Source: Haloarchaeobius sp. HME9146 (GTDB lineage Archaea; Halobacteriota; Halobacteria; Halobacteriales; Natrialbaceae). Taken from it: a stretch of DNA of 64,000 nucleotides. Position numbers and translations under genes: made by a program. Under the pieces are notes generated by a model. The model was not told where the DNA came from. It made no database searches and saw nothing but the letters and a program-made list of their open reading frames with translations. How positions within the stretch are numbered: the first letter of the stretch is position 1; every line of letters begins with the position of its first letter. The stretch is from NCBI RefSeq assembly GCF_025399835.1, contig NZ_JAODVR010000001.1:2976001-3040000 (forward strand). The letters run 5' to 3'. This document shows, piece after piece, positions 4,282 through 63,602 of this stretch.

Positions 4282-4356
4282 GCTCCGTTGGTGTAGTCCG
4301 GCCAATCATCTTGCCCTCTCACGGCAAGGACCAGGGTTCGAATCCCTGACGGAGCA
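4282..4356 (+). tRNA. tRNA-Glu (CTC)
   Basis: 75-nt cloverleaf. The acceptor arm GCTCCGT/ACGGAGC pairs 7 of 7 with discriminator A. Anticodon stem TTGCC/GGCAA encloses loop CTCTCAC, giving anticodon CTC. The T-arm has GGTTCGAATCC. CCA is not encoded. Confidence 0.96.
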
Positions 4357-4493
4357 CTTTTCCAATCTCGAATCGGCGAGCAACAGCGAGCCGTGTTCAA
4401 GTTCAAAAGTGCGCACGGAAGGGATTCGAATCAGGGAGCGAAGCGAACGCAGTGAGCGGAGAGACCGTGGTTCGAATCCCTGACGGAGCACTT
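4354..4493 (+). repeat. tRNA-Glu 3'-tail composite element
   Basis: Three parts lie directly behind the tRNA. (1) Inverted repeat GCACTTTT/AAAAGTGC, arms 4354-4361 and 4405-4412; the left arm includes the tRNA's last three bases. (2) An imperfect inverted T-arm copy near 4418-4432. (3) After a GAGCGAAGCGAACGC-type linker, a 25-nt exact direct copy of the tRNA 3' end (4469-4493 equals 4335-4359, offset 134 bp). No D-arm or anticodon arm is present in the copy, so it is not a second tRNA. Confidence 0.8.
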
Positions 4494-4623
4494 CTCACGA
4501 AGCAACTCACCGAGCGATAGCGAGGGGTGTTCGATTCTATGGATGCACCGGAAGGGAAGTGATGGGCAGTCTTGTGAATTCGGCCAGCGACACGCACCGA
4601 TGGCTCACCCGGCAGAAATGCTT

Positions 4624-4655: not shown

Positions 4656-4922
4656 ATGACTTACAGCGGACCGCCACCGTGGAGATCCCTCAACGCAGCC
4701 CTCAGCTGGGTTTTCGGCGGACTGATCGCGTGGTTCCTCGCCCTCGTAATGGGAGGGAACGATTCCACGACGGTATGGGTCGTCCTCCTCGGTCTCGCCG
4801 CGATACTCGCCGGGGGGAGCTGCATCGCACTCCTCTTCTGGGACGAGTTCGTCGTCGTGGTCGTCGACATCAAAGAACGCATGCTTGGACAGCGCCGGTC
4901 ACGCTACGACGAGTACCGATGA
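4656..4922 (+). CDS. small two-helix membrane protein
   Basis: 88 residues with two hydrophobic helices (about 16-33 and 41-64), a short acidic turn between them and a charged C-terminal tail with KERMLGQRRSRYDEY. No known domain recognised. It starts leaderless behind a palindromic AT-rich promoter and stands alone between tRNA-Glu and tRNA-Val. Function unknown. Confidence 0.65.
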   Translation: MTYSGPPPWRSLNAALSWVFGGLIAWFLALVMGGNDSTTVWVVLLGLAAILAGGSCIALLFWDEFVVVVVDIKERMLGQRRSRYDEYR

Positions 4923-4981
4923 TTCGTCCACTCTCCTGAACACGACGTGTGAAGCAAACAAAGGTCGCAGAACGGAGTTGC

Positions 4982-4996
4982 ACTGCACGGTGCAGT
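4982..4996. repeat. 15-nt inverted repeat
   Basis: ACTGCAC-g-GTGCAGT, 7-bp arms around one base, located between the small membrane gene and the tRNA-Val tail element. Downstream of both, so possibly a terminator hairpin. Confidence 0.4.
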
Positions 4997-5011
4997 TCGG
5001 CACAAAATCAG

Positions 5012-5149
5012 TGGGTTGGGGCAGATGTTGAACCTCACTCGCACCGCGTCGCGGTGCTCGCTGGTTCAAATCTACCCGGACCAATTTACGAAACACGTTG
5101 TACTCCTCGCGCGCTACGCGACGCTCGTCGGTATCGTGTTTCGTAAAAA
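5012..5149 (-). repeat. tRNA-Val 3'-tail composite element
   Basis: Read on the minus strand from the tRNA 3' end: a perfect 13-bp inverted repeat (arms 5135-5147 and 5085-5097, CGTGTTTCGTAAA and its complement) starting 3 nt behind the tRNA; then an inverted T-arm copy near 5063-5080; a linker rich in GCGAGC/GACGCGG; and a direct copy of the tRNA 3' end (15 identical nt, 5012-5026 versus 5150-5164, offset 138 bp). Same plan as behind tRNA-Glu. Confidence 0.8.
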
Positions 5150-5224
5150 TGGGTTGGGGCAGATTTGAACTGCCGACTTCCTCCGTGTGAAGGAGGTGTC
5201 ATAACCGGACTAGACCACCAACCC
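5150..5224 (-). tRNA. tRNA-Val (CAC)
   Basis: 75-nt cloverleaf on the minus strand. Acceptor GGGTTGG/CCAACCC with discriminator A; anticodon stem CCTCC/GGAGG encloses TTCACAC, anticodon CAC; T-arm GCAGTTCAAATCTGC. Confidence 0.96.
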
Positions 5225-37218: not shown

Positions 37219-38073
37219 TCACTCGTTGAGTGTCAGGCAGGCAAGCGTCGCGAACAGAGCTTCCTCCGTTCTCACGACCTTGCTGCCCTGGTGCGGAATC
37301 GAGTTCAGCCAAAGGTCGAACCCTCCGGCGTTGGGTTCGGTGGCGTCCTCGTGTCGAGCGGCCAGTTCGGCCACGTCGATTCCGAGTATTTCAGGCAGCC
37401 CTCGCCCCGGTGACCCGAACACGACGGTCATGCCGTCGCGCTGGATCTGCCCGGTCAGGTTCGCGAGTCGCCCCACGGTGAGTTCTTCACCGTGGCGCGA
37501 GGTCGCGATCCGGAGCCCCGCGTCGGGGCGGTCGAGCGCTGTCTGGAGGTCCGTGCGTTCGACGACCAGCCCACCGATGGGCTCGTCGACGAGTCGCGCA
37601 CGGACCGGACGTCGCGAAGATACCCTGACGATTACGCGTTCTCCCTCGTCTGGCACCGCCATATCGGGTGGTGCGACGAGCGAGATCGGGTGTTGCAGTC
37701 CGCAATTGACCCGGACGCGCCTGTCAGGTCCGACCTCGGTCACGATTCCCTGTCTTAACGACCCCGAACCGTCTGATTCGGAGCCGGTCTGTGGTGAGGC
37801 GCGGAGCGGCGGCAAGATACCGGCGTACTCCAGTTCGCTTCGATGCCCCCACGCCTCCTTTCGGAGGTAAGGGGGCGTCGTCGCGTATTCGAGTACGGTG
37901 CTTACGAACCCGCCACCCCATCTGGTCTCGCCGTCTTCGTCGGGGAAGACGACCAGCCTGTCTGCCCGGAACACCGTCGCCGCGCGGGCGACGTAGCCGA
38001 CCTTGCGAGTTGCCTCGCGTTTGTCTTCGGCTTCCCGGACGAGGGATGACGGCACGAGCACGCTGATGGTCAT
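37219..38073 (-). CDS. SPOUT-family putative RNA methyltransferase
   Basis: 284 residues. The N-terminal part has the trefoil-knot fold start (SVLVPSSLVREAEDKREATRKVGYVARAATVFRADRLVVF), an OB-like insertion (about 110-170) and a C-terminal knot with VVFGSPGRGLPEIL. It fits the archaeal COG2106 group, related to an RNA uridine methyltransferase family, which is regularly encoded just before rpl3. Target probably rRNA. First gene of the long block. Confidence 0.88.
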   Translation of the reverse strand: MTISVLVPSSLVREAEDKREATRKVGYVARAATVFRADRLVVFPDEDGETRWGGGFVSTVLEYATTPPYLRKEAWGHRSELEYAGILPPLRASPQTGSESDGSGSLRQGIVTEVGPDRRVRVNCGLQHPISLVAPPDMAVPDEGERVIVRVSSRRPVRARLVDEPIGGLVVERTDLQTALDRPDAGLRIATSRHGEELTVGRLANLTGQIQRDGMTVVFGSPGRGLPEILGIDVAELAARHEDATEPNAGGFDLWLNSIPHQGSKVVRTEEALFATLACLTLNE

Positions 38074-38345: not shown

Positions 38346-38427
38346 CGAAGCGCACTGGTAGTGTAGTGGTATCACGTGACCTTGCCATGGTCACAACCTG
38401 GGTTCAAATCCCAGCCAGTGCATTTCT
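38346..38427 (+). repeat. 82-bp direct repeat, copy 1 (contains tRNA-Gly)
   Basis: Identical over 82 bp to 40298-40379, offset 1952 bp. Contains the whole tRNA-Gly plus 6 upstream and 5 downstream bases. Confidence 0.9.
38352..38422 (+). tRNA. tRNA-Gly (GCC), copy 1
   Basis: 71-nt cloverleaf: acceptor GCACTGG/CCAGTGC plus A, anticodon stem TGACC/GGTCA enclosing TTGCCAT, anticodon GCC, T-arm CTGGGTTCAAATCCCAG. The region behind it (38423-38677) shares GAGCGACCGCG..GCGTGTCGCGAGAAC with the tail of copy 2 but has only a weak T-arm copy near 38565-38575. Confidence 0.96.
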
Positions 38428-38677
38428 GCCGACGCAAATCGACGAGCGAAGCGAGTCGCATCTCTCGGTATACAACACCCAAGAGCGACCGCGTTTGCGT
38501 GTCGCGAGAACAGCTGTGGTGCGAACGCCAGGTCGTGGGTGCGTGACCGACGGCCTGTCATCCCCCAGCCATGCTTGATATTCTCTAACAATGAGAATCT
38601 GCACTGTCCATATTCTGCTAGAAGTCCTATTGTTACCTGGTCAACTGAGGCACAGTGACCAGAAAGGGGGAAGAAAA

Positions 38678-40297: not shown

Positions 40298-40379
40298 CGA
40301 AGCGCACTGGTAGTGTAGTGGTATCACGTGACCTTGCCATGGTCACAACCTGGGTTCAAATCCCAGCCAGTGCATTTCT
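40298..40379 (+). repeat. 82-bp direct repeat, copy 2 (contains tRNA-Gly)
   Basis: Second copy of the 38346-38427 repeat; together they bracket 1.87 kb of small genes. Confidence 0.9.
40304..40374 (+). tRNA. tRNA-Gly (GCC), copy 2
   Basis: Identical to the copy at 38352-38422 in all 71 nt. Confidence 0.96.
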
Positions 40380-40584
40380 CAGTATTCAACTACCACGAGC
40401 GACCGCGACAGCGTGTCGCGAGAACGTCGTGAATACTGGAAATCTCGACACTGGGATTTGAACCAGCGAGCAGTGCGCGGTTCGGAGCAGAGCGAGAACC
40501 GCGACGCGAACGGTGAAGCCGTGAGCGAACGCAGCCGAGCGGAGCGAGGTCGTGCGAGTGAGGTTCACAATCCCAGCCAGTGCA
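40373..40584 (+). repeat. tRNA-Gly 3'-tail composite element
   Basis: Inverted repeat CAGTATTCA/TGAATACTG (arms 40380-40388, 40430-40438) enclosing a 7-bp CGCGACA/TGTCGCG stem; inverted T-arm copy near 40449-40476; GAGCGAACGCAGCCGAGCGG-type linker; direct copy of the tRNA 3' end (16 identical nt, 40569-40584 versus 40359-40374, offset 210 bp). The rest of the 40375-40767 gap is AT-richer promoter sequence. Confidence 0.75.
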
Positions 40585-63095: not shown

Positions 63096-63315
63096 TGGCC
63101 GGGGCGGGCTCCGAACATCGGTCACTCCACTCGCTACGCTCGCTTCGCTCCCTTTCGCCGGCTCACATTCGTTCGCCGGCGATTCAATCAGAGACGAGCT
63201 CTGACAGCCTCCCGCTCACTGCGTTCGCGGGAGCCGTAAACGGGTTCGTCACGTCTACCGGCACATTTCTGCCGGCGTCGTCACTCACTATCGTTCGTTC
63301 CTCGCAGCAGAAATG
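63096..63315 (-). repeat. tRNA-Met 3'-tail composite element
   Basis: Read away from the tRNA (leftwards): inverted repeat CATTTCTGC/GCAGAAATG (arms 63264-63272, 63307-63315, the latter overlapping the tRNA end), GC-rich palindromic linkers of the GAGCGAAGCG/CGCTTCGCTC type, and a direct copy of the tRNA 3' end with 21 identical nt (63096-63116 versus 63314-63334, offset 218 bp). Confidence 0.75.
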
Positions 63316-63469
63316 GCCGGGGCGGGCTCCGAACCCGCGATCTCCGCATGACCCAGGTCCGAGACTTGGCGGGTCCCGTGGGGGCATGCATGAGCCTTCC
63401 CAGGCAGTTACCGCACCGAATCTCTAAACCCTATGAGTGCGGCGCTATGTCCAGCTAAGCCACCCGGCC
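63314..63469 (-). tRNA. elongator tRNA-Met (CAT) with intron
   Basis: 156-nt gene. Acceptor GGCCGGG/CCCGGCC plus A, T-arm GCGGGTTCGGAGCCCGC, anticodon arm CCGCA/TGCGG with loop CTCATA-A after removal of an 82-nt intron. Mature length 74. Intron position 37/38 and the elongator Met identity match known haloarchaeal tRNA-Met genes. Confidence 0.92.
63350..63431 (-). other. archaeal tRNA intron
   Basis: 82 nt between anticodon base 37 and base 38. Removal restores a 7-base anticodon loop; boundaries set by pairing could be off by one or two bases. The splicing endonuclease needs a bulge-helix-bulge, which the flanking GGG/CCC stretches can form. Confidence 0.8.
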
Positions 63470-63602
63470 TCACTCATCGCTTGTCCAGTGTGAAACTTAA
63501 ACCTTCTCAACTGTCCCCGCCCTGTCTGGGAGTCTCACCCTGTGCCGTCGGTCGTTCGACCAGCCCCACGGATTTATACCGTGGGGTAGTAAAGCAGTGA
63601 GC

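Follow-up and report, generated by a model that had tools for sequence, protein, structure and literature searches.

The hairpin behind the tRNA-Val(CAC) gene of Haloarchaeobius sp. HME9146 is probably the tRNA-proximal half of a non-coding miniature insertion cassette, which duplicates about 21-22 nt of its target tRNA and is able to form arrays. Comparison of related genomes showed the position of such units, their tRNA-end copies, their precise alleles, the addition or loss of units at the tRNA, and homology between units standing behind different tRNAs. As for how the units arrive, we infer insertion by a reaction with a target duplication of 21-22 nt at the tRNA end. The window, meaning the whole stretch of 64,000 nt that was analyzed, corresponds to C1:2976001-3040000 of the source genome (G000); four sister genomes of the same genus are referred to as G001-G004.

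The tRNA-Val(CAC) gene occupies 5150..5224 on the minus strand (ARAGORN; RF00005, 63.4 bits). On the same strand the unit begins at 5085..5149 with a T-rich start and hairpin 1, a perfect stem of 13 bp with a 37-nt loop, whose arms TTTACGAAACACG (5085-5097) and CGTGTTTCGTAAA (5135-5147) are exact reverse complements lying 37 nt apart. This inverted repeat had been described exactly, and it is beyond chance: no perfect inverted repeat in the initial 140 nt of the tail is longer than these 13 bp, a length that was reached in 0 of 1000 dinucleotide shuffles (mean 6.3, maximum 10). Only 2 nt (5148-5149) separate the gene from the arm, so the arm starts at the third base.

Further from the gene lies an antisense copy of the tRNA-Val T-arm (5063..5077, minus strand), which reads GGGTAGATTTGAACC on the minus, transcribed strand and was not mentioned in the original prediction. 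It is followed by a family A loop, a GC hairpin in itself (5035..5062, minus strand; AGCGAGCA...TGCGAGTGA), and by a direct copy of the tRNA-Val 3' end at the distal end of the unit (5012..5034, minus strand). The antisense T-arm pairs with the direct copy, giving a second, larger hairpin (hairpin 2), in which they form the 5' and 3' arms and the family A loop forms the terminal part. The tRNA copy first reported at 5012-5026, where it is exact over 15 nt, is real and belongs to the same unit as the hairpin. It continues to 5033, so that with one base inserted it covers nt 53-73, the final 21 nt of the tRNA, and position 5034 is G on the transcribed strand where tRNA-Val has A; its score was 19/22 against a cross maximum of 11. 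Hairpin 1, antisense T-arm, GC loop and direct 3'-end copy make up a non-coding unit of about 115 bp. Folded as RNA, the 141-nt tail with its two hairpins reached -68.6 kcal/mol (z -7.1, 0/200 shuffles), and two hairpins were also obtained when it was folded as DNA (z -5.9). A possible remnant of an older unit is located at 4971..5011 (minus strand; CTGATTTTGTGCCGAACTGCACC...), which by eye resembles the tRNA-proximal unit of Val(gac) in the sister genome G003.

Units of this plan were found behind other tRNAs in the window. The second target is tRNA-Glu(CTC) (4282..4356, plus strand; RF00005, the ARAGORN end being 4357), behind which hairpin 1, an antisense T-arm (4420-4431) and a family C loop (4357..4468, plus strand) precede a direct copy of the tRNA-Glu 3' end that is exact over 22 nt (4469..4490, plus strand). 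The third is a tRNA-Gly(GCC) gene (40304..40374, plus strand; ARAGORN), whose unit at 40375..40561 (plus strand) consists of hairpin 1 (CAGTATTCA/TGAATACTG), an antisense T-arm (40449-40464) and a long branched loop, and leads into a direct 3'-end copy of this tRNA with one additional base (40562..40584, plus strand). An intron-containing tRNA within 63096-63470 on the minus strand, probably the elongator tRNA-Met as judged by eye, was missed by ARAGORN and is absent from the RF00005 matches. Behind its 3' end (63314) there is a hairpin-bearing stretch (63117..63313, minus strand, by eye), in which an antisense T-arm is not clear, and then a direct 21-nt copy of that end (63096..63116, minus strand), which begins 197 nt beyond. 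The first of the two tRNA-Gly(GCC) genes has a tail with hairpin-1-like sequences and a stretch 83% like the second Gly tail (38352-38511); a direct tRNA-end copy was searched for in that tail by local match and was absent.

In an Rfam search of the window at the gathering score, only 4 tRNAs and RF03135 were reported, and the units matched no family. RF03135, the L4-Archaeoglobi ribosomal protein leader, was placed at 37625-37727 on the minus strand with 75.3 bits (gathering score 34.5), in a host outside the group of its name. The sequence GARCGNAGYGAG, a GNA loop with two closing pairs and a tandem G-A mismatch, recurs in unit loops (e.g. 4445-4456 and 38444-38455). It occurs 55 times in the genome, and 24 of these 55 occurrences lie within about 400 nt 3' of a tRNA by hand count; as a genome-wide element this GA motif was dropped, its backwards control occurring 37 times.

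Across the five genomes, a unit was counted solely by a copy of the tRNA's own 3' end in the tail. The last 22 nt of each tRNA were matched locally to its own tail with a threshold of at least 14, and the same ends were matched to up to 40 tails of other tRNAs as a cross control. The sets used were 51/51 tRNAs in G000, 44/57 in G001, 43/43 in G002, 48/50 in G003, and 42/42 in G004; the 13 left out in G001, all on C2, are a 12-tRNA cluster (921-926 kb) and a partial match (69046), and the two left out in G003 lie on C3. The cluster in G001 comprises twelve tRNA matches on one strand in about 4 kb (G001:C2:921692-925779) and is perhaps of virus or plasmid origin. Own-tRNA copies were detected in 97 of the 228 tails, and 131/228 had none. 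The share per genome ranged from 14/42 to 28/51, that is, from a third to just over half, with copies scoring at least 14 of 22 in 28/51 tails of G000, 21/48 of G003 and 17/43 of G002. The own copy scored above every cross tail for 32 (G000), 28 (G003) and 17 (G002) tRNAs. Cross-tail scores had means of 7.0 to 8.7 and a maximum of at most 15, save that four ends scored 22, presumably where tails run into another tRNA gene. The antisense match stood above every cross tail in only 13/51 (G000), 10/48 (G003) and 12/43 (G002).

The unit ahead of the copy measures 38-235 nt, with a median of 102. In 73 of the 90 units in which the boundary is measurable (it is not in 7/97), the copy starts 1-2 nt before the T-loop TTC, at nt 52-53, so that about 21-22 nt are duplicated; copies of exactly the last 22 nt account for only 25/97. 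A variant plan, in which mainly the acceptor end is repeated, was seen by eye behind Ala and Arg(gcg). An extra T-loop base near the same place bulges hairpin 2 in 12/97 distal copies, including TTCACAATC, TTCAACATC, TTCACACTC, TTCATAATC, and TTCGAACTC, and in some Leu units the extra base is found by eye in the antisense arm instead. There is no gene inside the units, the longest stop-free stretch having a median of 34 aa and a maximum of 78. No terminal inverted repeats appeared when the first 20 nt of the 97 units were compared with the reverse complement of the last 20 nt (own mean 3.96, cross mean 4.18). Within the 0.8-1.5 kb of tail examined, there was no gene-bearing version and, save for second tRNAs of the same kind, no copy farther out than the arrays. 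In phage and plasmid collections, the one unit searched, that of tRNA-Val, had no match.

The gain and loss of units were followed in 976 ordered pairs of same-anticodon tRNAs from the five genomes, in which the flank after the tRNA was aligned to the tail of the other genome. This gave 273 colinear pairs and 106 jumps; only jumps with a copy just ahead were used, the others being diverged or short matches. The test sees only sequence adjoining the tRNA, so it leaves room for additions farther out. In clean cases the flank resumes directly after the distal copy. At Ser(gga), G004 is filled (about 203 bp) and G001 and G002 are empty, the flank being aligned from base 0 with scores of 115 and 117.5 and a 19.5/22 copy standing just ahead of the jump. 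Because Ser(gga) has no unit in the other four genomes, gain in G004 is favoured, and on these alignments gain is favoured over loss only at this tRNA. Leu(caa) is filled in G000, G001 and G003 and empty in G002 and G004, with G001 and G002 forming the cleanest pair, and Lys(ctt) is filled in G000 and empty in G003 (L088). At Val(cac), the unit is present in G003 and absent from G001, G002, G004 and a further genome of the genus, G005; the unit-free sisters have unrelated downstream sequence, and a precise empty site is therefore not established at this tRNA.

Units may also be added to tails that already have one. At Thr(cgt), Val(tac), and Asp, one genome carries an extra unit adjoining the tRNA and the first unit of the other genome stands second, a pattern that points to addition or loss next to the tRNA. 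Similar jumps were found in both directions at Arg(gcg) and Lys(ttt), and at Met the adjoining units are alike. The tRNA-Ser(CGA) arrays of Haloferax species differ by whole units: one unit and a remnant in prahovense and massiliensis, two units and a remnant in denitrificans and marisrubri, where the additional one adjoins the tRNA, one hybrid unit and a remnant in gibbonsii, and two full units in larsenii (hybrid and remnant judged by eye).

Homologous cores (score of at least 38) were shared in 16 of 2397 pairs of units behind different tRNA ends (less than 15/22 alike), and in none with one unit reversed. The His(gtg) unit of G001 and the Lys(ttt) unit of G004 match over the full unit, their tRNA ends being 11/22 alike, and the Asp unit of G002 is 87% identical to the Arg(tct) unit of G000 over 92 bp, where the arms of each follow its own tRNA. 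In the Ser(gga) insertion of G004, the direct copy fits its tRNA but the antisense arm does not, its own tRNA ranking 29 among the 39 tRNA ends of that genome. With ties counted, the own tRNA gave the best fit to the antisense arm in 47 of the 97 units; were any of about 43 ends as likely as another, about 2 would be expected. The misfit of the antisense arm beside a fitted direct copy, mainly in this one fresh case, suggests a target origin for the direct copy and a donor origin for the antisense arm, which would be matched to the new tRNA later. In the Val(cac) tail of G003 (L054), the hairpin-2 loop is inverted relative to 5035-5062 of the window (95% over 44 nt, opposite strand), as if it had been flipped between the antisense and direct T-arms.

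The units extend well beyond the genus. Among 29 tRNA-Val loci of relatives, 9 repeat at least 10 exact nt of the tRNA end within 300 nt (one locus having only 67 nt of tail). The pattern GATTYGAAYC-N20..50-GTTCRAATC, which represents antisense T-arm, loop, and T-arm, was searched in 392 genomes of the phylum, with the rows counted by hand. It was present in 73 of the 81 genomes sampled from the source's own order, the haloarchaea (nine in ten), with 19/19 in its own family (source included) and 54/62 in the other families, against 2/311 outside the order; the backwards control was found in 2/392 genomes. Twenty pattern regions were inspected, and in 17 of the 19 from the order ARAGORN found a tRNA whose 3' end faces the match at a distance of at most 200 nt. 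A tRNA-Thr-like sequence is visible by eye in region L278, and L285 contains three tRNA-Ser-type 3' ends, with the tRNA itself beyond the stretch; in the one region from outside the order ARAGORN found no tRNA. The family A loop of the Val hairpin 2 also stands behind tRNAs in Haloferax: in named genomes, its pattern had 13 loci, 11 in Haloferax and one each in Halogeometricum limi and Halobellus captivus. ARAGORN found a tRNA at 12 of the 13, with the units behind those tRNAs, and the remaining locus (L260) looks like a tRNA remnant.

Covariation in hairpin 1 was counted on two three-row alignments; a six-row alignment was left out as not being in structural register. At tRNA-Gly, where the arms are CAGTATTCA/TGAATACTG in G000 and CCGAAACTC/GAGTTTCGG in G003, 6/9 pairs were changed on both sides in an alignment of effectively two sequences, two of its three rows being near-identical and from one genome; 1/500 shuffles was as high, and slid controls gave 0-1. 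Compensatory changes among sisters, sought as a sign of a functional hairpin at tRNA-Val, were thus seen at Gly, while tRNA-Val itself had 2/13 pairs changed on both sides, with 72/500 shuffles as high. The Gly result implies that the structure of hairpin 1 has been kept at least there, whether through selection or through hairpin-templated correction. Units do not in general have long perfect stems: a stem anchored at the tail start was significant (p<=0.05) in 25/97 unit tails and 13/131 others, or 21 and 10 without G-A pairs. A T-rich start (at least 4 T in the first 6 nt) was found in 44/97 unit tails and 28/131 others. Strong folding was rejected as a mark of units, the energy of the first 80 nt being alike in 49 unit and 50 non-unit tails of G000 and G003 (p 0.61). 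Cross-pairing of hairpin 1 arms, a weak test, gave -12.7 kcal/mol for own and -10.3 for cross pairs, and own pairing was better than every control in 16/96.

The effect of the unit on the tRNA was calculated with an equilibrium model of bare RNA, in which modified bases, proteins, salt, and co-transcriptional folding play no part. For 94 unit-bearing tRNAs, the share of acceptor and T-arm pairs kept was 0.81 for the tRNA alone, 0.10 with the unit but without the copy, and 0.25 with the copy; for tRNA-Val, the corresponding values were 0.99, 0.0002, and 0.74. The copy improved correct pairs by more than 0.1 in 45 of the 94 tRNAs and worsened them by more than 0.1 in 9. In controls with 85 tRNAs, mean correct pairs were 0.24 for the native tail, 0.11 with the copy shuffled and 0.53 with both parts shuffled, the copy being better in 61/85 (long tRNAs or tRNAs misfolding alone, 3/97 and 12/97 units, were left out of the two sets). 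In this model, the copy would thus partly shield the tRNA from the antisense arm, and a cassette-free tail would be safer. RNA protection as the purpose of the copy was rejected; the better folding of shuffled tails (0.53) speaks against a purpose in read-through RNA. The predicted folding fits better with a cassette tolerated through an early end of transcription than with a designed tail.

These results bear on the view that the unit is a host RNA feature, in which hairpin 1 and the T-rich start end pre-tRNA transcription or guide trimming of the 3' end, and the next gene is insulated by hairpin 2. The unit does lie directly 3' of the tRNA in the same orientation, but a terminator has no need of a tRNA-end copy, 131/228 tails are without one, and the presence of units flips between sister species. 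T-rich starts are commoner with a unit (44/97 vs 28/131), hairpin 1 covaries at Gly (6/9 pairs), and the Val tail folds with a z of -7.1; folding over the first 80 nt is nevertheless no stronger with a unit (p 0.61), and the unit harms the tRNA in equilibrium folding (0.24 native vs 0.53 for shuffled tails), so that a read-through transcript looks costly. We regard a host RNA feature as unlikely. The suggestion that the hairpin simply sets the 3' end of one transcript found no support; the hairpin belongs to a tRNA-wide family of units that are gained and lost, with an anchored stem significant in 25/97 unit tails and the same initial folding energy with or without a unit. As the full account, a lone terminator was rejected in view of the antisense and direct tRNA-end copies and the presence flips.

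The preference of archaeal integrases for tRNA 3' ends, as described in PMC8371274, makes it conceivable that ordinary integrase elements (viruses, plasmids) once occupied tRNA att sites and left the units as footprints in which only their ends survive. Such an origin is improbable, since the two-hairpin plan and the loop families are common to different tRNA kinds, no gene lies inside the units, and cross-tRNA homologues each bear their own tRNA's end, whereas simple att recombination would leave donor ends. Simple att recombination through a tyrosine recombinase is therefore disfavoured between tRNA kinds and possible within one kind. The earlier idea of an integrase-type site with the tRNA copy as partner comes close, since the precise empty sites at other tRNAs in sister genomes support some kind of insertion site; ordinary att recombination does not suit the moves between kinds. 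Spread may also have needed no dedicated enzyme, if template switching or ectopic recombination used the shared T-loop motif GGTTCRAATC as a short homology. The copy does start in a region of sequence shared among tRNAs, the T-loop border (in 73/90, with 1-2 identical bases ahead of TTC), the antisense arm supplies the same motif, and the inverted family A loop in Val(cac) of G003 is what in-hairpin switching would give. This possibility is doubtful given the left junction at nt 73 in the clean empty-site cases, a point without an evident shared motif, and the Ser(gga) unit, which stands behind a tRNA unit-free in four other genomes. A chance palindrome in GC-rich intergenic DNA has next to no probability: the counts of GARCGNAGYGAG and its backwards control (55 vs 37) indicate that short GC palindromes of such make-up are not rare, but the shuffles (0/1000), the fold z of -7.1, the own-tRNA copies, and the Gly covariation rule it out.

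If the units are insertion cassettes, the target would be opened for an arriving cassette on two sides: at nt 73, the 3' end of the tRNA, and at nt 52-53, the border of the T-loop. An opening so placed would duplicate the target sequence whatever the tRNA, by the same logic as a transposase or a Cas1-like integrase, and the origin of the copy in the target would be accounted for by a transposase, Cas1-like or other. The tRNA would be restored, and an older cassette would be displaced outwards and decay. The antisense arm would move with the cassette and later be matched to the new tRNA, perhaps by hairpin-templated correction, and a cassette could be lost by recombination between direct copies. 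Hairpins 1 and 2 may serve the cassette for recognition or protection, and its T-rich start may keep the end of tRNA transcription near the gene. Tentatively, one may imagine a tRNA-anchored cassette system, in which a putative integrase reads tRNA shape, not sequence, and inserts self-folding non-coding cassettes at many tRNA 3' ends. Each insertion would duplicate that end and place the newest cassette nearest the gene, giving ordered arrays like those of CRISPR or integrons, and the antisense T-arm would be re-matched to each host tRNA.

Several known systems share features with these units. In integron arrays, several small units stand beside a primary site that is fixed, every unit closes with an imperfect hairpin site, and the attC core is GTTRRRY. 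The likeness to integron cassettes lies in the small units, hairpin ends, fixed adjoining site and multi-unit arrays; the units differ in that their site is the tRNA end itself, which varies with each tRNA, and their T-loop reads GTTCRAA, not GTTRRRY. We know of no integron integrase for tRNA-tail units. With MITEs they share a target duplication and no coding capacity, but they have no terminal inverted repeats. The palindrome-associated transposable elements (PATEs) of Haloquadratum, as characterized in PMC3119063, are of non-coding length, without terminal inverted repeats and with palindromes near both ends, and no target duplication is listed in that account. The units resemble PATEs and IS605-type derivatives in shortness, in lacking terminal inverted repeats, in two palindromes (Val unit), and in their haloarchaeal host, and differ in duplicating about 21-22 nt of a tRNA, PATEs being described there without duplication and without a tie to tRNAs (PMC3119063). 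Casposons have terminal inverted repeats and a cas1-type gene; casposases produce duplications of 14-15 bp at tRNA 3' ends, and in the M. mazei case presented by PMC6977970 the duplication includes only the last 4 bp of the tRNA and 10 bp beyond (PMC6977970). In contrast to casposons, the units duplicate 21-22 nt inside the tRNA and have no terminal inverted repeats, no stop-free stretch above 78 aa and no gene.

Haloarchaeal integrative elements at tRNA att sites are reported to have direct repeats of the tRNA 3' end at both ends and a XerC/D integrase (PMC7921747, PMC8371274). The tRNA 3' end as a direct repeat is common to both, but the units measure about 100 bp (38-235 nt ahead of the copy) and are gene-free, often with an antisense T-arm. 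In Thermococcaceae, partial tRNA genes have been traced to integrated elements (about 9 to 23 kb in the six examples given) or to CRISPR activity (PMC9897764), and tRNA remnants beside full tRNAs are mentioned in passing, without explanation, in PMC7921747. No description of tRNA-tail units as a family was found by title or abstract, most subscription papers lying outside the search.

If the units are mobile cassettes, they would represent a large unnoticed class of tRNA-targeting elements with a reaction of their own, and might be turned into a tool for inserting DNA behind tRNA genes. The units are also relevant to the origin of the integrase preference for tRNA ends and to how a pre-tRNA stays able to fold beside its own antisense. 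In annotation, the mechanical open frames at 4306-4597 and 4899-5096, both on the minus strand, give RDSNPGP- and RVDLNQR-like peptides read from tRNA ends and units, and gene finders might call such frames proteins.
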